Source: a virus. From it: a DNA stretch of 25,104 nt. Both the position numbers and the translations under genes were made by a program. Location: the IMG/VR virus record IMGVR_UViG_3300017749_000123, positions 1 through 25,104 of that record. The stretch is one strand, 5' to 3'. Shown piece by piece: positions 6,853 through 23,330 of the stretch. How positions within the stretch are numbered: the stretch's first letter is position 1; each line of letters starts with the position of its first letter. Below the pieces are notes generated by a model, which made no database searches, was not told the origin of the DNA, and saw nothing but the letters and a program-made list of their open reading frames with translations.

Positions 6853-7827
6853 ATGAGTAACAATTATAACGAACAGCCTCCAAAAATTACACGCATACAA
6901 TGGTTATTTGCAAACGTCTGTAACTATGATTGTTCTTATTGTCCAAAAATTTTACACTCTAGTCGAGTGAAGTTTCCTGATGAGAAGATACTAACTGATG
7001 CTATACAGTACACAGTTTCATCTTTGAGAATGCTTGATAGAGAACCTGCGTTTGAATTTGTAGGCGGAGAACCCACACTCAATCCTGGATTGTTGGCCAT
7101 GTGTCAACGAATGGGCAATCAACAACTCAAAAACAAATTGACCACTAACGGATCTGCAGATATAAAATGGTATGAAGAACACTATCATTATTTTTCTACA
7201 ATTGAAATCAGTTATCATATCGGGTGGGCAGACCAACAGCACATCGAAGAATTAGTTGACTTCTTGGTGGCCCAGGAAGACTACGACGGCAATAAAAAAG
7301 TACAAGTGAGAATAATGATTCATTGTACCAACGAAGATGATAAATGGGCAAATGCTATCAGTGTGTATCAACAATTCAAAGCAAAAGGGTATCCTGTGGA
7401 ACTTAAACTTTTGTATTCAAACTTTACTAAAGGATTTCAATATCTTCCTTATAAAACATATCAACTGGATTATTATTTCAAAGAGCGAGGAGAAGAATGG
7501 GATCCGGAACAGACAATGTACTTGGGAAATTTAAAATACGACGGAGTTTCGAGAGCCAGACACGACATAACAAAAGAAGATGTAGACAAAATAAACAAAG
7601 ACAAACCAATAAAACAAAACTGGAACTTCCAGGGTTATAGATGTAACGCAGGCAAAGATCAGTTCGTGATTGATCAAAAAGGCAAAGTTTGGAGAGGTTG
7701 GTGTGGAGAAGACAAAAGTTTAGGAAATGTTTTATACAGGAATGTTTCTTGGCAGAACGATGCGTGGAAATGCACAAAACCTGTGTGCCGGAATGGCTTT
7801 GACCAACTGGCGACCAAGTTTAAATAG
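6853..7827 (+). CDS. Radical SAM enzyme
   Basis: The protein has 324 residues. The radical SAM signature is C23-x3-C27-x2-C30 (CNYDCSYC), which binds the [4Fe-4S] cluster that cleaves S-adenosylmethionine. The GGEP motif at 71-74 contacts SAM. A C-terminal cysteine group (GYRCN, GWCGED, KCTKPVC) after about residue 260 could hold an auxiliary cluster as in SPASM/twitch enzymes, so the substrate may be a peptide. The next gene encodes a ferredoxin-NADP reductase, a plausible source of the electrons needed to reduce the cluster. The substrate is unknown. A queuosine QueE role is not supported, because no other precursor-forming gene is nearby. Confidence 0.85.
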   Translation: MSNNYNEQPPKITRIQWLFANVCNYDCSYCPKILHSSRVKFPDEKILTDAIQYTVSSLRMLDREPAFEFVGGEPTLNPGLLAMCQRMGNQQLKNKLTTNGSADIKWYEEHYHYFSTIEISYHIGWADQQHIEELVDFLVAQEDYDGNKKVQVRIMIHCTNEDDKWANAISVYQQFKAKGYPVELKLLYSNFTKGFQYLPYKTYQLDYYFKERGEEWDPEQTMYLGNLKYDGVSRARHDITKEDVDKINKDKPIKQNWNFQGYRCNAGKDQFVIDQKGKVWRGWCGEDKSLGNVLYRNVSWQNDAWKCTKPVCRNGFDQLATKFK

Positions 7828-7862: not shown

Positions 7863-8591
7863 ATGGCAAAAGAAACAGTAACAGAAGTAATTCACTTAAC
7901 AGACAATTTATTTTCATTCAAGACTACCAGAGATCCTGGATTTAGGTTTGAAGCAGGACAGTTCACAATGATTGGCCTTGACGGGACACCTAAACGTGCA
8001 TACTCCATGGTGAGTGGACCTTACGATGAATACTTGGAGTTTTTATCTATTGTAGTCGAAGACGGACCATTGACATCAGAACTGGTCAAAATTAAAGTTG
8101 GCGATACAGTCAACGTTGGAAAAAAAGCAGTAGGTACATTGATAACCGATTCATTAACAAAGGGAAAAAATCTTTGGTTGATTGGAACTGGAACCGGTAT
8201 TGCGCCTTTTGTTAGCATCTGCCGTGATCCAAAAACATATGTTAAGTTTGAAAACGTGATTGTGTGTCATACTGTGAGAACAAAAAAAGAACTTGCATAC
8301 TACGATTACTTCTTTAATCTGACAATGAAAAACATGATACAATATTTTCCAACAGTCACTAGAGATACCGAATGGGTCAACCAAGGCAGGATCACCAACC
8401 TGATCAAAGATCAAAGTGTTTTCCAAAATTTAGAATTACCTGTGTGGACACATCAGAACGATGCTGTCATGCTGTGTGGTTCCACAGAATTTAATAAGGA
8501 GATGATGGAATACCTAGACCAAGGTGGATGGACAGTGGGCACACTCGGAGAGCCTGCTACCTACGTTTACGAAAAGGCATTTGTAGGATAG
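7863..8591 (+). CDS. fpr: Ferredoxin/flavodoxin-NADP(+) reductase
   Basis: This 242-residue FAD enzyme moves electrons between NADPH and ferredoxin or flavodoxin. The FAD-binding motif RAYSMVS is at 45-51 and the NADP-binding GTGTGIAPF at 108-116. AVMLCGSTEFNKEMMEYL near 205 is the usual nicotinamide-side segment. The protein ends YVYEKAFVG, like the C-terminal extension of bacterial Fpr proteins. The length is near the family norm (about 250). It lies between two radical-SAM-type genes, which suggests that it reduces their clusters through a small carrier not seen in this window. It has its own strong promoter. A reductase of this type is uncommon in phages as far as I know. Confidence 0.88.
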   Translation: MAKETVTEVIHLTDNLFSFKTTRDPGFRFEAGQFTMIGLDGTPKRAYSMVSGPYDEYLEFLSIVVEDGPLTSELVKIKVGDTVNVGKKAVGTLITDSLTKGKNLWLIGTGTGIAPFVSICRDPKTYVKFENVIVCHTVRTKKELAYYDYFFNLTMKNMIQYFPTVTRDTEWVNQGRITNLIKDQSVFQNLELPVWTHQNDAVMLCGSTEFNKEMMEYLDQGGWTVGTLGEPATYVYEKAFVG

Positions 8592-8599: not shown

Positions 8600-8608
8600 T
8601 TGACATTA

Positions 8609-9565
8609 ATGTCAGAAACCAACAGATACAATCCGCAAAAATTTAGAGGAGATGCTTCCAAGACTTATTGTGCGGCTTTTTACAAGCACACAAACATTCG
8701 TTATGACGGAAATGCATATGCTTGTTGCCGTGGAACTCAGCCTGTCACAAAAGTAGAAGGTGAGTCATCTTCGTTGCTTCATACAAACGAGTATCAAAAT
8801 TTAAGAAATAAAACAGAACGAGGAGTCAAGTTAAACGGTTGTTCAAAATGCTATCTAGAAGAAGAACATGGTAAATTTAGTATGCGTCAGCAATTCAATA
8901 AAGAGTTAGGTACTGACAAAGAAGTTAAACTTGAATGGTTAGAAATAGGTTCGATATGGTCAGAAGTAGGAACCCAGGCAGTGAAGTCTGTTATAAAGAT
9001 ACCCGAAACTGTTAGGAGGATTAGATTCATGGAAAGAGAACCTTTCATGACAGGTACTCACAGAAAAATACTGCAAACAATGAAAGATCCAAATCTCAGA
9101 GAGACATCTATTGAGTATGCAACTAATGGTCAATTTATGCTTACTCCGGATGACCATGCACTGCTGTCTAGAGCCAAGCACGTGGTAATTGATGTAAGTG
9201 TTGATGCATTTGGAGGATTGAACTCTATTGTGAGAGAGGGTGTCGATTGGGAAAAAATAGATATGTTCGTTGACGATATCATGGAGAACACAAATTACAA
9301 AATTGGCATATACACTACCTTACACAACAAAGGATGGAAGAATCTTGATAAACTTGCAAAATGGGTGCGTACTAAGATGAAGGCTGATAATATGCGTTGT
9401 TTTTACTGGCAAATAAATCCCTTAACATACCCGGAGCATCTGTGCATATCACACCTGTCTAGTGATGAGAAAGAGCAGTTAATCAAGTGGATCGAGGAAT
9501 ACGATACTATGTTCATTAAGAGTTCGAAGCATTACATTAAAAGTATACTTAATATTGGTAAATAA
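8609..9565 (+). CDS. Twitch-type radical SAM-like protein lacking the CX3CX2C motif
   Basis: This 318-residue protein starts at ATG 8609; a TTG at 8600 is less likely. Its N-terminal 95 residues have C21, C39-C40, C78 and C81 (YAYACC-like, GCSKC), the same layout as the twitch-type auxiliary region of the radical SAM protein at 22041-23330. In that family a strand follows that leads into CxxxCxxC. Here the matching stretch is LEWLEIGSIWSEV (residues 109-120), with no cysteine. The rest keeps a barrel-like pattern (SIEYATNGQFML, VVIDVSVDAFGG). It therefore looks like a relative that has lost the SAM cluster, perhaps a scaffold or substrate-binding partner of the neighbouring enzyme. The role is inferred. 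Confidence 0.65.
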   Translation: MSETNRYNPQKFRGDASKTYCAAFYKHTNIRYDGNAYACCRGTQPVTKVEGESSSLLHTNEYQNLRNKTERGVKLNGCSKCYLEEEHGKFSMRQQFNKELGTDKEVKLEWLEIGSIWSEVGTQAVKSVIKIPETVRRIRFMEREPFMTGTHRKILQTMKDPNLRETSIEYATNGQFMLTPDDHALLSRAKHVVIDVSVDAFGGLNSIVREGVDWEKIDMFVDDIMENTNYKIGIYTTLHNKGWKNLDKLAKWVRTKMKADNMRCFYWQINPLTYPEHLCISHLSSDEKEQLIKWIEEYDTMFIKSSKHYIKSILNIGK

Positions 9566-12510: not shown

Positions 12511-13083
12511 ATGGAATATTTTGAATTACCACAGTTAAAGGTTAATAGCGAAGAACACATTGATGCTATTGATAAACTAGAGCAGTACTTTAGACCAGTA
12601 TCTCTAAAACCTGAAGGACATCAGGTTGTATATGAGGGTGTATCTGAAGATGCTAATCCAGATGACTGGACGTACTATCAAGATTTGGATCATGACGCAA
12701 ACTTTGATTCAAACCCTTTGGTAGAAAAAATATGCCAAGACGCTTGTAAAATTTTAAACTTGCCTCGAAGCAAAGTTGTTAGAAGGCAGTACACTAAAAT
12801 GAAACCAGGCTGGTCACTTAATATACATCGTGATGTTGCTAGACAAGTTGCACTACTTGTAGAGTTTGTTGATGCAAAGGGAGATATCACGTGGTATAAT
12901 GATAAACGTGAACCAACTAAAACTTTAGTTTATGGTCCACCGGTTGTTGTTAACACCAGGCAGTTGCATAGTGCAAGGGCAAACGATATCAAAAGATTTG
13001 GATTCCAAATTGATTTTGATTATAACATGAACATCGACGAAGTGTACAATGCGTACAAAACTTCGGAGTGGTTCTTAAATTAG
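12511..13083 (+). CDS. 2-oxoglutarate/Fe(II) oxygenase-like protein
   Basis: This 190-residue protein has the metal-binding facial triad of the cupin-fold oxygenases: H106-x-D108 in the segment SLNIHRDVARQVALL, and a distal H153 in VVVNTRQLHSARAND. R162 (KRFGFQID) about nine residues later is well placed to bind 2-oxoglutarate. The layout is closest to aspartyl/asparaginyl or prolyl hydroxylase types. The target could be a protein, a nucleobase or a small molecule. It heads a plus-strand unit followed by three small proteins that have their own ribosome-binding sites. Substrate unknown. Confidence 0.7.
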   Translation: MEYFELPQLKVNSEEHIDAIDKLEQYFRPVSLKPEGHQVVYEGVSEDANPDDWTYYQDLDHDANFDSNPLVEKICQDACKILNLPRSKVVRRQYTKMKPGWSLNIHRDVARQVALLVEFVDAKGDITWYNDKREPTKTLVYGPPVVVNTRQLHSARANDIKRFGFQIDFDYNMNIDEVYNAYKTSEWFLN

Positions 13084-14335: not shown

Positions 14336-14944
14336 TTAGGCTTTATTATCTTCTTCTCTGCTATGCACAATTTTGTCTGCTAATCCGTAAGCAATAGATT
14401 CTTCGGAAGTCATGAACTTGTCTCGTTCCATGTCTGCTTTAAGTTTGTCTAATGTTTGTCCTGTGTGCTTCTCGTAAATTTTTGTAAGTTCATCTTTCCA
14501 TCTTAATAATTCTTTTGCTTGGATTTCAACATCTGTTGCTTGTCCTCTTGCACCACCTAACGGTTGGTGTATCATGTGTCTTGAGTGAGGTAACATCATA
14601 CGTTTACCTTTAGTTCCTGCTGAAGCCAACAACGATCCCATAGAACAGGCTTGTCCAATTACAATAGTTTGTATATCAGATTTAACATATTGCATGGTGT
14701 CGTATATGGCCATACCAGCAGTAACTAATCCGCCAGGGGAGTTTATGTATAAAACTATATCTTTGCCAGGTGCTTGTGATTCTAAGAATAACAACTGAGC
14801 ACATAACACAGAAGCGGTATGTTCACCAATTGGTCCTTCTAACATAATAATTCTGTCTTTAAGTAAACGAGAAAAGATGTCATAACTTCTTTCGCCTTTG
14901 CTTGTTTGCTCTATTACAATTGGTACTAGTGAACTCATACTCAT
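14336..14944 (-). CDS. clpP: ATP-dependent Clp protease proteolytic subunit
   Basis: This 202-residue serine peptidase would form the barrel of a Clp protease. The catalytic triad is complete: S101 in [15 protein letters not shown]126 in HMIHQPLGG, and D175 in ERDKFM. The N terminus lacks a long propeptide. ATG 14944 or the second ATG at 14938 can start it, and the promoter geometry favours 14938. No ClpX or ClpA is in the window, so the phage subunit may work with host unfoldases or act on phage virion proteins. It is flanked by an exported protein and the odd tRNA-like gene. Confidence 0.93.
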
Positions 14945-14973
14945 ATAATAATACATTTCCTTTCGAATGTCAA
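14945..14973 (-). promoter_or_regulatory. Sigma70-type promoter of clpP
   Basis: On the minus strand TTGACA (14973-14968) and TATTAT (14950-14945) are 17 bases apart. The -10 box touches the first ATG. The predicted +1 is 14938, the second in-frame ATG, which again gives a leaderless mRNA. Confidence 0.6.
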
Positions 14974-15033
14974 CCTTGTTTACTTTTTGCAGGTGGGTGG
15001 TGTATTGGCACCACCCTTCCAATATTAACCTGC

Positions 15034-15162: not shown

Positions 15163-15561
15163 TTATAGTTCGTTTATTCCTTCGTTCATTCCTTGCTCTA
15201 ACCCTGTTATTAGACCTGTTAAAATTGCAATACCAAATAATATTGCTAGTATGATAATAGGACTTGCTAACCAAAGATACCAATAGTGTCTGAGTATTCC
15301 TCTGCCTAGTTCTAAACGTTTCTTTCTGTTATCCATAAACCAATGCACAACAAATTTAATAACTCGTTTAAGATTTTTAGAAATAAACTTTTTGAACAAC
15401 CAACGTAATACTCTCATAACAATTAATATTGGAGAACTTAAAACGTCAAATACTATTAAGAATACGTCAACACTCAAGTCGACAATGTTATCGGCAGTTG
15501 CGGCTTTACGAAATCTCTGTCGCAGTGTAGGTTTGGTAGATATTATATCTCTGTCTGCCAT
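15163..15561 (-). CDS. Membrane protein coupled to the HtrA-type protease
   Basis: The protein has 132 residues. A basic N terminus (TLRQRFRKAATADN) is followed by a hydrophobic segment (LSVDVFLIVFDVLSSPILIVM), a strongly basic middle (WLFKKFISKNLKRVIKF) and a second hydrophobic segment near the C terminus (WLASPIIILAILFGIAILTGLI). It is probably a two-span inner-membrane protein with a cytoplasmic basic loop. Its ATG overlaps the stop of the protease gene by one base (TAATG), so the two are translated together and may act together. No family recognised. Confidence 0.7.
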   Translation of the reverse strand: MADRDIISTKPTLRQRFRKAATADNIVDLSVDVFLIVFDVLSSPILIVMRVLRWLFKKFISKNLKRVIKFVVHWFMDNRKKRLELGRGILRHYWYLWLASPIIILAILFGIAILTGLITGLEQGMNEGINEL

Positions 15562-16670
15562 TAGTTCTGCTCAGGATCTTTACCAAACACTCTTACCTGT
15601 GTTGGTTCTGCTTTGCCAAGTACAACGTTATACGTTTTATACTTGCCGTTTCTATAAATTTTTATACTAATAGTATCACCGGGCATCTTCTTCCAGAGTA
15701 TTCTAATAACTTGATTAGTAACTTGTACTTTTTCGCCATCAATAGAAACTATTATGTCACCTTGTTTTATACCATATTGCTCTGCCGCTCCACCTTCTGA
15801 TAAACCTTTTACTTCTAAATAATGTTCTTTGCCTGAATCTCTTAATTCATAAAACAGATCTTGATCTTCTATTATTCCCATTAGGATACCTATAGATGGT
15901 TTTATATGTTTGCCAAATTCAAGTATATGGTTTGCTACTCTTTCAACTAATGCAGTTGGAACCGAATACCCATATCCTACATAATACTTTGTCGGCGATA
16001 TGATTAATGTGTTTACTCCAATTACATCACCTTGCTCATTCAATAAAGGACCTCCGGAGTTACCCGAATTGATAACTGCATCTGTTTGCAGATAACTTAC
16101 CCAACTTGATTGTTGATTTGGTCTTGTATCGTATCCTATAATACCTGTTGTCAGTGACCACATTTGTCCTGTGCCATGTCCTAACGCAAATACTGTGTCA
16201 CCTATTAATGGATCTTCTGTTGCAAACTTTAATATACCGTGATCAATAGTTGGTGTTGCCGGAAGTTTTAACACGGCAATATCAGACTCAACATCAAAGC
16301 CTACAACTATTACACCATTAATTTCATAAGGATGTCCCCATGCATAAATTTTAATTGATGTTGCGTTTTGAACTACATGATAATTTGTAACAATATGTCT
16401 TTCATCTATAAAGAATCCTGTACCCATAGCAACCTTTGGTGGGAACAACGGAATTACTTCCGGTTCCGGTGGATCTATATGTAACGGAGGGGGCAGTGAC
16501 TCATTACTGTTTGGGCCATTAGGAAACTTTAAAAACGATGTTTGCTCTGTGCTAATCAGTACTACTGATTCAAATGCGTTTTCCCACTTCCATTCTCGAG
16601 TATCTTCTTGAGCAATAGCAGGAAAAGAAATAGAGATTATTAATATTGCAACAAAAAGTAGTCTTTTCAT
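15561..16670 (-). CDS. Secreted HtrA/DegP-type serine protease with PDZ domain
   Basis: The protein has 369 residues. MKRLLFVAILIISISFPAIAQ is a signal peptide with cleavage near AIAQ, so the protein acts in the periplasm. The trypsin-like domain has a full triad: H98 in NYHVV, D130 in ESDIAVLKL, and S205 in NSGNSGGPL. A proline-rich insert lies at about 48-80 before the domain. The C-terminal PDZ domain (GLSEGGAAEQYGIKQGDIIVSIDG) would select substrates. The start at 16670 was chosen for the signal peptide and an AATAAATA motif 5 bases upstream. A longer frame lacks support. It may process envelope or phage proteins, or relieve folding stress late in infection. Confidence 0.9.
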   Translation of the reverse strand: MKRLLFVAILIISISFPAIAQEDTREWKWENAFESVVLISTEQTSFLKFPNGPNSNESLPPPLHIDPPEPEVIPLFPPKVAMGTGFFIDERHIVTNYHVVQNATSIKIYAWGHPYEINGVIVVGFDVESDIAVLKLPATPTIDHGILKFATEDPLIGDTVFALGHGTGQMWSLTTGIIGYDTRPNQQSSWVSYLQTDAVINSGNSGGPLLNEQGDVIGVNTLIISPTKYYVGYGYSVPTALVERVANHILEFGKHIKPSIGILMGIIEDQDLFYELRDSGKEHYLEVKGLSEGGAAEQYGIKQGDIIVSIDGEKVQVTNQVIRILWKKMPGDTISIKIYRNGKYKTYNVVLGKAEPTQVRVFGKDPEQN

Positions 16671-16675
16671 GCAAA

Positions 16676-16681
16676 TATTTA
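16676..16681 (-). promoter_or_regulatory. T4-late-like AATAAATA promoter motif
   Basis: On the minus strand TAAATA ends 5 bases before the protease ATG at 16670, placing the T4-type +1 on the start codon. No ribosome-binding site is present. Confidence 0.5.
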
Positions 16682-16689
16682 TTGTAAAA

Positions 16690-17460
16690 TTACAGTATTT
16701 TTTTGTCGTGTATGAATTGTAGCAGGAGGTCTGCCCATTGGTGATGTCCCTTTTGGGAAGGATGAGCGTCATTAAAAGATTTTCTCAAACCTTGTTGAGC
16801 ACAATACTCGAAGTGTGACTGAACATAATCGGTATTGGGTACTGTTACCGTTTCGTTTTTTGTCTTCATTTCGTTGTAAATTTTAATGTTTTCTTTAACG
16901 TGTTCCGATGTTTCAAAGTTATAGAAACGATCTGTGTCAACGGCACCTTTTAAATTTTTTAAATCTCCGTCGTCGTGCAGTTCATTTGATAATGCCCAGT
17001 ACATCAAATAAGGAATGTTATGTAATTTAAAAAAGTCTTGTAGTGTTAAAATATTTGTGTACAGTCTAACTGTTGCCGCCATTTCGATATCAATATCTTT
17101 GTCACGTGCTATCCATTCGTTTTCCCAAAGTCTCCACGTACCCCACTGATAAGAAAACTTACCTATCTCGTTTGTTCTTTTAACACCTTTCATTCTATCG
17201 TAATCTGTTTTGCCATGGATGTAATCCCACCGTTGTCCAGATGACCAACCGATAGTAACAAAAGTATCTTTGAATCTGTCTGGATTATTATAGAACCAAT
17301 GCATAGTAGTAGTAACCATTCTGTCGTTACCCCTGCCGCCTTTGGCTAATGTTATAGTTGGCAGATTTAAATGTTCACCTAACTTCTGATGACAATTCAT
17401 AAATGCTTTGCTAGTACTAAAACTGCAACCGTTACTTAAATGATTTATAATGTTTTTCAC
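16690..17460 (-). CDS. SGNH-hydrolase-like phage protein, GTG start
   Basis: The protein has 256 residues. Block I is NGCSFS (nucleophile S13). GGRGNDRM at about 41-48 resembles the GxND block. DAHPSQKGHHQWADLL near residue 230 supplies the Asp-x-x-His pair. These blocks match SGNH/GDSL esterases, which remove acyl groups from sugars or lipids, although the Ser context differs from GDSL. No signal peptide is seen, so it works in the cytoplasm or on the virion. Proteins of this type occur in marine phages near glycan genes. A TAAATA motif 5 bases before the GTG marks the start. Confidence 0.7.
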   Translation of the reverse strand: MKNIINHLSNGCSFSTSKAFMNCHQKLGEHLNLPTITLAKGGRGNDRMVTTTMHWFYNNPDRFKDTFVTIGWSSGQRWDYIHGKTDYDRMKGVKRTNEIGKFSYQWGTWRLWENEWIARDKDIDIEMAATVRLYTNILTLQDFFKLHNIPYLMYWALSNELHDDGDLKNLKGAVDTDRFYNFETSEHVKENIKIYNEMKTKNETVTVPNTDYVQSHFEYCAQQGLRKSFNDAHPSQKGHHQWADLLLQFIHDKKIL

Positions 17461-18109: not shown

Positions 18110-18433
18110 ATGAAACTGTCAGGAAATTGGAAAACAGACGGCAAGACAACTGTTAGCGAATCAAACTATTCAGTTGTTGACAACGAAACACTGAAAACAA
18201 TGACTCTGTCAGGAATGACAATCCAACCCAACAGCGACTCATTCAGACACGGACACAAAGGACATGAAGAAATTTATATGTTCGTGCGAGGCACAGGATC
18301 AATGCAACTCAACAATGATTCCAAGTTTGGGGTTGCACCAGGAGACATTGTGTTGATACCGGACGGTACTACACACGAAGTCTGGAACACCGGAGGAGAA
18401 GAATTATATTTCTTAATGATATATGGAAATTGA
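18110..18433 (+). CDS. Small cupin-domain protein
   Basis: The protein has 107 residues from ATG 18110; a frame beginning at 18023 overlaps the promoter motif. Cupin motif 1 is HGHKGHEEIYMFVRG (metal ligands among H47, H49, H52 and E54). Motif 2 is PGDIVLIPDGTTHEVWN (H89). The single-domain size fits metal-binding isomerases, dioxygenases or sugar-binding cupins. It overlaps the first PP-loop gene by 11 bases and so probably works with it, for example acting on the product of the ATP-dependent step. The exact reaction cannot be read from sequence. Confidence 0.82.
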   Translation: MKLSGNWKTDGKTTVSESNYSVVDNETLKTMTLSGMTIQPNSDSFRHGHKGHEEIYMFVRGTGSMQLNNDSKFGVAPGDIVLIPDGTTHEVWNTGGEELYFLMIYGN

Positions 18434-19280
18434 CACAGATCACGGAACACTAGAAGCAACCATACCCGATAATCAAAAAGGTGTGGGTGTTGCAATCAGT
18501 GGCGGAATGGATTCCGCTACACTGCTCTATATGTTATGCAGACAGATCAGAGACAGACAACTTGACATTCCTGTATACTGTTACATAGTTGCATATGATT
18601 ACGACAGGGGTTCATTGTACAACGGTGGACTTGTTATCAAACATATGCGTAAAGAGTTTCCGGACGTGAAAATTCATGCACAGATGTTTGTTACAGCAGA
18701 AGCAATAGGTAGCATGAAGGCACAGTTCGCAGGTGCCATGTTTCACGAAACGTTGCGTAAAAATAAATGGACGGGGACAGAATTTAGATTATGGTTTGGA
18801 TTGACTTCCAATCCACAGGATGATTCTTTTAAGTTTGAAACTCCTAAAGAATGGTATGTCACGCCCGATGATGCAAGACAACCTGGCAACATTGACTTAA
18901 AAGCAAAACCCAGATACGGTATAGGTGCTTGTCATCCGTTTGTGCTTGTGGACAAAAGAGTTATTGTTCAAGCAGTATGGAAGATGGACCTGTGGTACTG
19001 CTTTGATACAATCACAAACTCTTGCACTAACATTAAAGAGTATGACTGTGGCAGTTGTTGGTGGTGTCAAGAAAGAGCATGGGCAACAAAAATTTCAGTG
19101 CCAGAGGAGGATCAGCCTAGAAGTGGCGTACAAAAATTAATTCATTACAGCACACAAATACCTATCAGTAAGTTGTGGAGAGATGGTGTTGTGTGGACCA
19201 AGGAAGGCTACGAGGCCAGAATAAAATTCGAAGAAGAGAATCCTCAGTTTTTTAAAACGTTTGAACAACGAGTATCTTAA
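18423..19280 (+). CDS. QueC-like PP-loop ATP pyrophosphatase, copy 1
   Basis: The protein has 285 residues. The PP-loop SGGMDS at 26-31 binds ATP for adenylation of a carboxylate or amide. The C-terminal NSCTNIKEYDCGSCWWCQER supplies four cysteines in the zinc-site pattern of QueC (7-cyano-7-deazaguanine synthase). A short N-terminal strand segment (TDHGTLEATIP) precedes the PP-loop in both tandem copies. QueC itself is about 230 residues and works with QueD and QueE, which are not here. The substrate may therefore differ. It lies between a cupin and its paralogue in one operon. Confidence 0.8.
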   Translation: MEIDTDHGTLEATIPDNQKGVGVAISGGMDSATLLYMLCRQIRDRQLDIPVYCYIVAYDYDRGSLYNGGLVIKHMRKEFPDVKIHAQMFVTAEAIGSMKAQFAGAMFHETLRKNKWTGTEFRLWFGLTSNPQDDSFKFETPKEWYVTPDDARQPGNIDLKAKPRYGIGACHPFVLVDKRVIVQAVWKMDLWYCFDTITNSCTNIKEYDCGSCWWCQERAWATKISVPEEDQPRSGVQKLIHYSTQIPISKLWRDGVVWTKEGYEARIKFEEENPQFFKTFEQRVS

Positions 19281-20381
19281 ATGATACTGACGACCAAACA
19301 CGGAACAATTGAAGCAACAATTAGTCCTGTCACGAAGGCTGTCATGGTTGCGGTCAGTGGTGGAATGGATTCTGCCGTTCTACTCTATATGCTTTGCAAA
19401 CAGATACGTGATAACAATTTAGGAATACCTGTGTACACCGGCACGGCCTCCTACAACAGTGACAGGGTTGCCACCTTTCATGCTTCGATGGTAGTGAAGC
19501 ATATGAGAAAGGAGTTCCCGGATATAACTATCCACCCGATGTACTGGACAGGGGAAGGCAACGTTGGCGAGATCAAACCACTGTTGGTTGAAACTATGTA
19601 CAGCGATATAAGATTAAAAAATGGTTGGACAAAACATCAGTTCAAGTTGTGGTGGGGTGTTACCGGAAATCCAAGTGACGATAGTTTCAAGTTTGTGGAA
19701 CCGGAGGGACACTACGTAGTTCCCCGAGAACCAAACCATTCACCTGCAAAGGTTAGGTACGGCTTGGGTTTCGCAAATCCATTTGCGAGGATAGACAAGA
19801 GACTGATTGTTGCCGCACAGATAGAATACGGATTGTTTGAATGTTACACTAGCATAACAAACAGTTGCACGTCTTTAACTGAATACCAGTGCAACAAGTG
19901 TTGGTGGTGCCAGGAACGTGACTGGGCGATAGAACAGGTTGTTCCAAAAGAACTTGTGGCTCCAAAGGATACTGCGCCAATGAGTCATTACGACAAATTA
20001 GGAATTGATAAAAAATGGAAAGCGGGTGTTAGATGGAACAAGGAAGCATACCTGGAACGACTCAAAATGGAAGAGGAGCATTTGTCTGCAAGTGATAAAC
20101 TTGTATGGGCAAAGCGATTTCTGGAGGGGATGGCTAAGGATTGCGGCACACTAGACACCAGCAAATTTAAACTAGGTGTGCGTTATATGGAATATTCCAT
20201 TAAAGAGGACAGGTATTATATAAGTGCCGGCAAGGGCGAAGAAAGAATAGGACCATTACCGACCATAAGGGACTGCTGGCCAATGTTTGATGATGTCGAG
20301 ATAGTTGATTGTGCTAACGAAATACAATTGATGCTGGAAACTGGTGTTAACCCTGGGGAGACGTTACCGCCTCCCGCATGA
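19281..20381 (+). CDS. QueC-like PP-loop ATP pyrophosphatase, copy 2 with C-terminal extension
   Basis: This 366-residue paralogue of the preceding protein starts directly after its stop. The layout is the same: HGTIEATIS, SGGMDS at 26-31, a VKHMRKEFPD segment shared word for word, and a four-cysteine site (NSCTSLTEYQCNKCWWCQER). It adds about 80 residues after the shared end (from about residue 275) with a YYISAGKGEERIGPLP segment that looks like a small beta domain. The base composition is more GC-rich than copy 1, suggesting different history or older divergence. The pair may form a heterodimer or act on successive substrates. Confidence 0.8.
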   Translation: MILTTKHGTIEATISPVTKAVMVAVSGGMDSAVLLYMLCKQIRDNNLGIPVYTGTASYNSDRVATFHASMVVKHMRKEFPDITIHPMYWTGEGNVGEIKPLLVETMYSDIRLKNGWTKHQFKLWWGVTGNPSDDSFKFVEPEGHYVVPREPNHSPAKVRYGLGFANPFARIDKRLIVAAQIEYGLFECYTSITNSCTSLTEYQCNKCWWCQERDWAIEQVVPKELVAPKDTAPMSHYDKLGIDKKWKAGVRWNKEAYLERLKMEEEHLSASDKLVWAKRFLEGMAKDCGTLDTSKFKLGVRYMEYSIKEDRYYISAGKGEERIGPLPTIRDCWPMFDDVEIVDCANEIQLMLETGVNPGETLPPPA

Positions 20382-20396: not shown

Positions 20397-21326
20397 TTAG
20401 AAACTAAATTTGAATCCAACAGACATACCGGAGGTATCTGTTGCGTTTGAATTGTCGGCCATTTCATATGCGCCGTACATTTCAAGTTTTTCTGTGATTG
20501 ATCTTTTTACACCCACTGTCGTATAGCCGTTGCCATCTTCCACTTTTGCATAACCCAACTGAACTGTTGTGTCATCCATAGTGTGTTGTGCAACGATTTC
20601 GTTTGCGTTCACGTCTGTGGTTGTGTCTTTGGTTGTGTAGTTGTACCCAACCGAAGTGTCATCACTCAATGCAACTGTTACGCCTGCACCCATGTAAGTG
20701 ATGTCGTTGACTTTATCATCAGAATATGCCACACCAACATCTATGCTTTCGCTGATAGATACTGTTGCCGCTGATTCATATACGTCAACACCCGACTTAC
20801 CGGTCGAACCGTCAACTTTGATTTGATTATCAAGTGTCAGTGCGCCAATTGAGTTCGAGTATGTTACTGTGTGTGAATCTCTGCTAAAAAGTTTTTGAGC
20901 CGCTTTTCCACCATACTCAGGAAAAATGTCTGTCTTAGATGTTACAGCATTTTTGAATACAGAGTTTTGTCTACCCGCTGATAGAGTTCCTGCGTCTCCC
21001 ATGTCTACACCTGCGTATGCAAGTTTAGAATCAAAAGGGTTAGAGCCTGTGTCGTCGGTGTCTACATCAACTTCTATTGTTGCAAATCCTGTTACGCCTT
21101 CTGCCAACTCTTCTGAGAAGTTAACACCAATGGAAGAACCGTTGTTCTCTGCCTTTGATGTTGCGTTGCCGTTGCTGTCTTCGTTGTTAGATATCATGTA
21201 GTTCAATGAACCGTAGACATCCATCTCCGCCGCTTCGGCAGGAGCAGGTTTAAACACCCACCCTAGTATTCCCAATGCGACGATAATCGCCACACCCAGG
21301 CTTACTTTTTTCTTGGTTATTTTCAT
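20397..21326 (-). CDS. Outer-membrane porin-like protein
   Basis: The protein has 309 residues. A basic start and hydrophobic stretch (KKKVSLGVAIIVALGILGWVF) lead to an AEA-type cleavage site near residue 33. The mature protein begins MDVYGSLNYMI, like Gram-negative general porins. Alternating strands with aromatic girdles follow, a GDAGTLSAGRQNSVFKNAV segment typical of porin loop/strand 3, and the last residue is phenylalanine (GFKFSF), the sorting signal for outer-membrane assembly. It is made with a leader carrying a large hairpin and an AAGGAG site. A phage porin could change permeability or block other phages. That role is inferred. Confidence 0.8.
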   Translation of the reverse strand: MKITKKKVSLGVAIIVALGILGWVFKPAPAEAAEMDVYGSLNYMISNNEDSNGNATSKAENNGSSIGVNFSEELAEGVTGFATIEVDVDTDDTGSNPFDSKLAYAGVDMGDAGTLSAGRQNSVFKNAVTSKTDIFPEYGGKAAQKLFSRDSHTVTYSNSIGALTLDNQIKVDGSTGKSGVDVYESAATVSISESIDVGVAYSDDKVNDITYMGAGVTVALSDDTSVGYNYTTKDTTTDVNANEIVAQHTMDDTTVQLGYAKVEDGNGYTTVGVKRSITEKLEMYGAYEMADNSNATDTSGMSVGFKFSF

Positions 21327-22040: not shown

Positions 22041-23330
22041 TTAAAACAAAAAAGAAAACATTTCTGGATTTACTGTTTTGAGTGTGTTGCCGCGAATTTT
22101 TTCAACTGCTGTTGTGAGTTTTTGGAAATGCTTACGATATTTGGGGTCTTGTGTTTCTGGGAACAGTGCTGGATTCAATTGTTTGCTATAAAAGTCACTC
22201 CATTGTGCGTGAGGCACTTGAGCAAATCTATTATATATTGTTTCTGCTTGTCTTTTATTAAGCAAGTTACTAAATGCTTGATCGCCTGTCACTTGATCCG
22301 GCCAGTTGGTCGCTGGATCTAATCCTACGTCTTGCATCCACTCATACCATTCATGCCATTTGTTTACTGTGAACACACTGACAGCAGACTGAACTTCTAA
22401 TTGTATTCCGTTGTCTTCTTTGGCCAACTGTACCCATTTCTTAGCATTGTTGGTATATTCATTCCATTTGGTTCCATATCGTACGTATTCTGCTAATGCT
22501 CCTGTGCTCTCACCAGATATACGCAAGTACACGTTCTTCATACGAGTAAACGATTGTATAATACTGTCTTTTGGAAACAATGAGTTGTTGGTGTTGATAT
22601 ACAATGATACTTTGGATAGATCACAACGATCTGCCAGTCTTGTAAGGAACTCATCAAATATACGAATCATGAACGGCTCACCACCTTTTATATAAAGCAT
22701 ACGCAGTTCTGATAGATCGGACAATAGTATTTGCTCCATTATATGATACTCGTTGTCGTGTGTATGATATTCTGAGACTTTGTTCTGTGCAAAGTATTCT
22801 GGCTGATCAGGAAACTCTATGTTCTGTAACTGTTTAGAAGTCTTATTCCATTCTGATGATGAATAAGCATTACAGTACACACATTGGAAATTGCAAAAGT
22901 TAGAGAACATCACATCGAGATGTACTATCTTACCCGGTGCATGACGTTCTGGTACTCGTTGATGTGCTCTGCCACGCAACGATGAGAATACTGTTTCACC
23001 TACTTTGGATGCATCTATATTAACATAGCCATATGTTTTTTCACGAACACGACATTTAGTACATGGGCCTTTAGCAAGTTTAGGATATGTAAAAGTTGAA
23101 TCTGTATTAACGTCTTCGAGGTAACTGTTTAGTGCATAGTTGTTGTGTCGTTCACGTGATCCATTCTTAAGTTTAGTAACATCAAAGTAACAACATGGTG
23201 TAACTGCAAATGTATCTTTATCAATTGCCGATGATATACATACGCCATTGGTTATGAACGCACATTCTTTATTGTTTAATAAGTGCTTATGTGGATTCTG
23301 GTCTCTGAACTTCTTGCTTATTGTTGGCAT
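22041..23330 (-). CDS. Twitch-domain radical SAM enzyme
   Basis: The protein has 429 residues. The N-terminal region holds C23, C31, C46-C47, C90 and C93, which resembles the twitch-type auxiliary cluster site placed before the catalytic domain. The radical SAM motif is C146-x3-C150-x2-C153 (CNFQCVYC). The SAM-binding GGEP lies in MLYIKGGEPFMIRIF. The barrel continues with LYINTNNSLFPK and LRISGESTG. The C-terminal 100 residues are helical with tryptophans. Such proteins are recurrent in marine phages, and their substrate is unknown. The gene at 8609-9565 is a relative lacking the catalytic cysteines. A TAAATA motif lies 6 bases upstream. Confidence 0.88.
   Translation of the reverse strand: MPTISKKFRDQNPHKHLLNNKECAFITNGVCISSAIDKDTFAVTPCCYFDVTKLKNGSRERHNNYALNSYLEDVNTDSTFTYPKLAKGPCTKCRVREKTYGYVNIDASKVGETVFSSLRGRAHQRVPERHAPGKIVHLDVMFSNFCNFQCVYCNAYSSSEWNKTSKQLQNIEFPDQPEYFAQNKVSEYHTHDNEYHIMEQILLSDLSELRMLYIKGGEPFMIRIFDEFLTRLADRCDLSKVSLYINTNNSLFPKDSIIQSFTRMKNVYLRISGESTGALAEYVRYGTKWNEYTNNAKKWVQLAKEDNGIQLEVQSAVSVFTVNKWHEWYEWMQDVGLDPATNWPDQVTGDQAFSNLLNKRQAETIYNRFAQVPHAQWSDFYSKQLNPALFPETQDPKYRKHFQKLTTAVEKIRGNTLKTVNPEMFSFLF

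Follow-up and report, generated by a model that had tools for sequence, protein, structure and literature searches.

The window analysed here is the whole of a virus record, a linear genome fragment of 25,104 bases, and encodes two PP-loop proteins, A and B, which are remote QueC homologues that have lost the motifs for recognising 7-carboxy-7-deazaguanine (CDG). Their family lies in a conserved radical-SAM (rSAM) neighbourhood, with PP-loop/rSAM fusions in some loci, and the pairing of gene A with a cupin gene is kept in a sibling phage. A and B may represent a phage-borne, non-deazaguanine QueC-superfamily clade in which ATP is spent on activating a carboxylate so that an amide-type bond can form, and which operates alongside twitch-domain rSAM enzymes, a reading we hold with about as much confidence as doubt. 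From its UvsW-type, primase and helicase genes, the window phage, a marine one, appears to be T4-like.

The cupin gene (18110–18433), gene A (18423–19280) and gene B (19281–20381) form a compact set, all on the plus strand. A first-pass annotation, made from the sequence alone, had described three overlapping or abutting open reading frames, and this arrangement was confirmed: the cupin and A genes overlap by 11 nt (18423–18433), and the TAA stop codon of A (19278–19280) directly abuts the ATG of B at 19281. The set is not attributable to chance, because the reading frames are long, A and B can be aligned across 279 codons, and the order of cupin and A is kept in the sibling (locus L087). A promoter and terminator scan of the cupin-A-B operon gave no signal above chance. 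The cupin is a single-domain protein of 107 residues (Cupin_2, Pfam PF07883, 7e-14) with both metal-binding motifs complete, H-x-H-x3-E-x6-G and G-x5-P-x-G-x2-H-x3-N; the three histidines and one glutamate of a metal-dependent cupin are present in both the window and the sibling protein. Proteins A (285 residues) and B (366 residues) are paralogues with 47–48% identity, and their length difference of 81 residues, given as 80 in the first-pass annotation, is a C-terminal surplus of B.

Both PP-loop proteins contain SGGMDS, a C-terminal four-cysteine site of the QueC type and a shared N-terminal (D/K)HGT(L/I)EATI segment, as had been noted before. The cysteine site reads C-x7-C-x2-C-x2-C, one residue shorter than the C(x)8CxxCxxC published for QueC, and the N-terminal segment is predicted to form a two-strand hairpin (residues 2–4 and 9–11 in A, 2–5 and 8–11 in B). 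The Pfam QueC model PF06508 gave 25.2 bits for A and 28.5 bits for B, above its gathering score of 22, with the match coming chiefly from the C-terminal cysteine region; with the QueC equivalog model TIGR00364 the scores were 22.6 and 24.5 bits, more than 120 bits short of its cut-off of 150.3. By PF06508 score and by the presence of SGGxDS and the C-terminal four-cysteine site, A and B thus belong to the QueC superfamily in the broad sense. When a profile of 72 family members was aligned by hhalign with canonical QueC from metagenome-assembled genomes (MAGs), probabilities of 97.6–98.9% were obtained over about 190–205 columns (E 3.5e-12 at 97.6%). This full-length profile alignment, which takes in the N-terminal SGGxDS PP-loop, a conserved PF....K region and the C-terminal four-cysteine site, argues that the A/B family consists of true, remote QueC homologues.

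Residues invariant or nearly invariant in the family (A numbering) are SGGxDS, P131, R152, P172, K178, T198, S200-C201, C209, C212, C215, E217, R218 and W220, and every family-invariant residue is kept in both A and B. SGGxDS was found in 80 of 81 members and CxxCxxC in 79 of 81, the cysteine count being biased by the search: members were retrieved by a pattern around CxxC(W/F)(W/F)C, so that conservation there is partly ascertainment, whereas SGGxDS lies outside the pattern. An rSAM protein picked up by iterative search (L003 8604–9956) is excluded from the PP-loop member set.

Mutagenesis has shown that YxQxHxxE, VPxRN and YPDC are needed for preQ0 formation (PMC13329287). None of the three motifs occurs in any of the 81 family members, A and B included; among five canonical QueC controls, YxQxHxxE and YPDC were each found in two and VPxRN in four. 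Unlike canonical QueC, the family also lacks the SCY tyrosine and has G(V/L)TxNP, the invariant arginine (R152 in A) and CxxCWWCxER in place of the canonical features, and it has no linked QueD, FolE or TGT. These three families gave no match in nine records (the window, the 44 kb sibling contig, both of them fragments, and seven further records) in searches in which the controls matched, and a canonical QueE did not turn up either, the only candidates being rSAM proteins that resemble QueE weakly. The loss of the CDG-recognition motifs across the whole family supports the view, on sequence grounds, that A and B do not run the known 7-deazaguanine pathway as such and would act on a substrate other than CDG, as has been argued for QatC (PMC13279940). 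The first-pass annotation had reached the same rejection from the absence of QueD, QueE, QueF and folE, which holds, within a 25 kb linear fragment, for QueD, FolE and TGT by family and for canonical QueE.

Ordinary synthesis of preQ0 or ADG to serve phage DNA or tRNA, the other pathway genes lying beyond the fragment, could still account for the PF06508 scores, for QueD in the records of 7 of 28 relatives and for the lead of phage 7-cyano-7-deazaguanine synthases, as annotated, when the model of A was compared with predicted viral proteins. We nevertheless consider this very improbable, given the motif losses and the TIGR00364 scores and because QueD, where present, is unlinked to the PP-loop gene.

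Alignment searches returned at least 114 relatives from IMG/VR, of which 80 were kept, and 4 from 84,980 species genomes, so the family is mainly viral. A tblastn search of named phages with A, B and the L003 PP-loop protein gave no match, and no close relatives of B, or of the rSAM protein encoded at 22041–23330 in the window, were found among the viral contigs searched. Four MAG contigs (L083–L086; Chloroflexi, Bdellovibrionia and Pacearchaeota) carry family members beside rSAM genes, and TIGR00364 is matched at another place in each of the four genomes.

Grouping at 90% identity left 57 independent loci, the window included. A gene with the rSAM cluster motif lies within 3 kb of the PP-loop gene in 51 of these and is missing from that interval in 6. 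The gene immediately following the PP-loop gene downstream, on the same strand, encodes an rSAM protein in 36 of 56 loci, where 18.1 would be expected from shuffling the other genes within each locus; none of 1000 permutations reached the observed count. Recurrent orders are PP > rSAM(~430) > rSAM(~300) and, with overlapping genes, rSAM-PP-rSAM-PP-rSAM-SDR-rSAM, and PP-loop/rSAM fusions of 743–762 residues were found in L003 and in L004/L005/L006. The partner is most often of the twitch-domain type described by NCBI NF033640 (N_Twi_rSAM), whose curated cut-off of 170 bits is exceeded by partners in L022 (328.6 bits) and L055 (188.5 bits). It is thus an rSAM enzyme, and not a cupin, that the PP-loop family keeps as its genomic partner, a link to the PP-loop genes that the first-pass annotation had not made, and the neighbourhood together with the fusions argues for a shared pathway. 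Two PP-loop copies per locus recur in lineages separated in the tree (e.g. L082, L029, L047–L075, L003/L004 and L007/L008), and such paired copies may work together.

NF033640 has no function assigned in NCBIfam, and its association with PP-loop genes was found in the present analysis. Cassettes of rSAM genes have been described in the host-recognition island of pelagimyophages, with no function given in the passages concerned (PMC7029224), and as many as 12 rSAM genes have been reported from a single T4-like genome (PMC5332604). These marine T4-like phages resemble the window in kind of genome and in having an rSAM-rich island, but the passages describing their cassettes mention neither a QueC-like PP-loop partner nor a function (PMC7029224; PMC5332604).

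The window contains rSAM genes of both partner types, none of which adjoins A or B. The gene at 22041–23330 (minus strand) encodes a 429-residue twitch-domain rSAM enzyme of the type that flanks or is fused to the PP-loop family in relatives; at 160.4 bits (E 7e-47) it falls slightly below the NF033640 cut-off and is thus a relative just under the threshold. It lies 1.66 kb from B, and the partner rSAMs that sit directly next to PP-loop genes do not have it as their closest match. The second type is represented at 6853–7827 (plus strand) by a 324-residue rSAM enzyme. Of 23 third genes of the PP > rSAM(~430) > rSAM(~300) cassette, 19 had this enzyme as their best match in the window, and a 72% identical orthologue of it is present in the sibling. 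At 8600–9565 (plus strand) lies a gene for a degenerate twitch-rSAM-like protein without CxxxCxxC, a pseudo-radical-SAM protein that scores 131.8 bits with NF033640, again under the cut-off, and has a 47% identical sibling orthologue. Between these two genes, at 7863–8591 (plus strand), is encoded an FAD/NAD(P) ferredoxin-reductase-like protein (PF00175, 2.5e-8) with no match in the sibling contig, which could possibly supply electrons to the rSAM enzymes. The gene at 12511–13083 was considered as a member of a hydroxylase-like neighbour cluster of the relatives (c4) and set aside, as it gave no profile match.

The first-pass annotation had taken the cupin and the two PP-loop proteins as one functional set and had proposed a search for the triple in other phages. 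The triple is not conserved: only the window has it among 85 loci. No relative of the cupin was found among the open reading frames of the 84 other loci (phmmer E<0.1), and one further case of a cupin beside a PP-loop gene was found, in the sibling L087, which has a single PP-loop gene. With its absence from the 84 other loci and presence in one sibling only, the cupin was rejected as a general component of the conserved system. The earlier interpretation is therefore partly supported: it rightly set the known pathway aside, but it was too early to take the cupin and two PP-loop genes as a unit.

The sibling contig (G029, 44 kb, comprising L087 and L105–L107) carries genes for a ClpP, a trypsin-like protease, an SGNH-like protein, the cupin and the PP-loop protein in the same order as the window. 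Its cupin is 79% identical to that of the window and the 11-nt overlap is repeated, so the combination of a cupin with one PP-loop gene is conserved over the two phages. The sibling PP-loop protein shares 51% identity with A and 50% with B; the tree places it with A (support 83/62), and a grouping of A with B was not rejected (p-AU 0.26). The second PP-loop copy was either gained in the window line or lost in that of the sibling. Nonsynonymous divergence from the sibling (dN) was 0.48 for the PP-loop gene and 0.14 for the cupin, a difference of more than 3-fold, with synonymous sites saturated.

Other genes in the two phages were also recorded. In the window, the ClpP-type protease is encoded at 14336–15022 and a DegP-like trypsin/PDZ protease at 15561–16772, both on the minus strand and both kept in the sibling. 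The SGNH/GDSL-like gene at 16690–17460 (minus strand; DUF6071, 1e-5) is 70% identical in the sibling and, by profile, weakly matched the SGNH-like genes that lie close to PP-loop genes in other phages. At 20397–21326 (minus strand) is a Gram-negative porin-like gene (Porin_4, 1e-21) with relatives of 63–74% identity in nine other viral contigs, in which the helicase is also present where covered. Between its helicase and rSAM genes, the sibling contig encodes a class II aaRS-like protein (L106:9721–10611), a PurF-like glutamine amidotransferase (L106:8312–9643) and a 653-residue rSAM protein (L106:1322–3283), all three absent from the window. For two further sibling genes, one of 402 residues (G029 22100–23308) considered as an amidinotransferase and one of 291 residues considered as an aminotransferase, Pfam and NCBIfam gave no support for these assignments.

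In the mechanism we propose, A and B would be two diverged copies from one clade that combines a PP-loop ATP pyrophosphatase core with a four-cysteine site, presumably binding Zn, and that no longer recognises CDG. The conserved PP-loop and the established chemistry of QueC-type enzymes point to a reaction in which a carboxylate or amide oxygen is first adenylated and a nitrogen nucleophile then attacks. Each copy would accordingly use ATP to adenylate a carboxylate on some other substrate, with release of PPi, and the acyl-adenylate would pass to an amine or ammonia to give an amide-type bond; a putative amide-type modification, as guessed in the first-pass annotation, is a reasonable expectation. 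Twitch-domain rSAM enzymes would provide this substrate or alter it further; possible candidates for it are a peptide or protein, a sugar acid, a cofactor or tRNA. The genes of such a pathway would be split in this phage among the cupin-A-B set at 18.1–20.4 kb, the twitch rSAM gene at 22.0–23.3 kb and the rSAM gene at 6.9–7.8 kb, with the cupin as a lineage-specific accessory. We infer that both copies are active, that the chemistry is of the acyl-adenylate/amide kind and that a joint pathway operates in this phage; against the last of these, the rSAM gene at 22041–23330 is on the strand opposite to A and B, and no rSAM gene is adjacent to them.

Members of the QueC superfamily have been repurposed away from preQ0 synthesis before, in Cap9 of type IV CBASS and, as proposed, in QatC of qatABCD, the latter having lost the CDG motifs as the A/B family has (PMC13279940, PMC13329287). 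Protein conjugation of this sort, in which a small carboxylate would be joined to an amine such as the N-terminus of a virion, host or counter-defence protein, is rather unlikely in our judgement. In sequence-profile comparison with the PDB the family matched Cap9 best (9nto, E 5e-5), although over two short stretches, and T-x-S-C-E occurs in 60 of 81 members, Cap9 having CE where QueC has CY, yet A and B themselves carry T-x-S-C-T. The resemblance of N_Twi rSAMs to peptide-modifying SPASM/twitch enzymes would suit a protein substrate. Unlike Cap9 and QatC, however, A and B are phage-encoded, have rSAM neighbours and differ in other conserved residues; no QatB- or CD-NTase-like partner is among the window's Pfam families listed (QatB has no Pfam model), and PADLOC returned a weak match to its generic QueC model only. 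Nor do we think it likely that the enzymes amidate a sugar acid as part of a phage island for changing the host surface, a role like that of WbpG-type amidotransferases in surface-glycan or sugar-nucleotide modification. The location of rSAM cassettes in the host-recognition island, as far as the relevant passages on pelagimyophages describe it (PMC7029224), would fit, as would DegT-like aminotransferase, SDR and carbamoyltransferase-like genes in some relatives' loci, assigned partly by eye; such genes occur in few loci only, however, no glycosyltransferase adjoins A or B in the window, and the WbpG-type cysteine motif, CxxC(x)6CxC, is different (PMC13329287).

Predicted structures bear on a further alternative. 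The AlphaFold2 model of A had a pLDDT of 82.5 and a pTM of 0.81; that of B had a good core and a C-terminal part, from about residue 230 onward, with pLDDT of about 34–48. Searches of the PDB with these models gave asparagine synthetase, TilS and NcsA as best matches at low TM-scores and did not single out QueC, a result with which thiolation or other PP-loop chemistry would be compatible. Such non-amide chemistry on tRNA or a cofactor, of the NcsA/TtuA/LarE/TilS kind, nevertheless seems distinctly improbable: NcsA and TilS are among the top matches of both models, at fold level only, and phage tRNA genes are present in the window, but the cysteine pattern is that of QueC, whereas LarE has a three-cysteine Fe-S site, QueC is the most frequent sequence-profile match (38 of 72 members), and no sulfur carrier or desulfurase was found.

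ATP-dependent amide-type chemistry alongside twitch rSAM enzymes may also be placed in a wider frame. We suggest, tentatively and with more doubt than conviction, that a QueC-fold ATPase and a twitch rSAM enzyme could form a widespread phage system in which both act on one shared substrate, possibly a peptide or protein. In such a system paired PP-loop paralogues would have different acceptors or substrates, and the cupin would have been added to it in the window's lineage.

A 2026 survey of PF06508 contains no cluster of the A/B kind among those characterised (PMC13329287). Since the QueC fold has recently been shown to carry out protein conjugation in bacterial immunity, a further QueC clade without the deazaguanine motifs, found in aquatic phages and linked to rSAM genes, is a specific lead towards new chemistry. 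The rSAM cassettes of marine T4-like phages, which have been without a function, thereby gain a recurrent partner with an ATP-dependent step that can be assayed.
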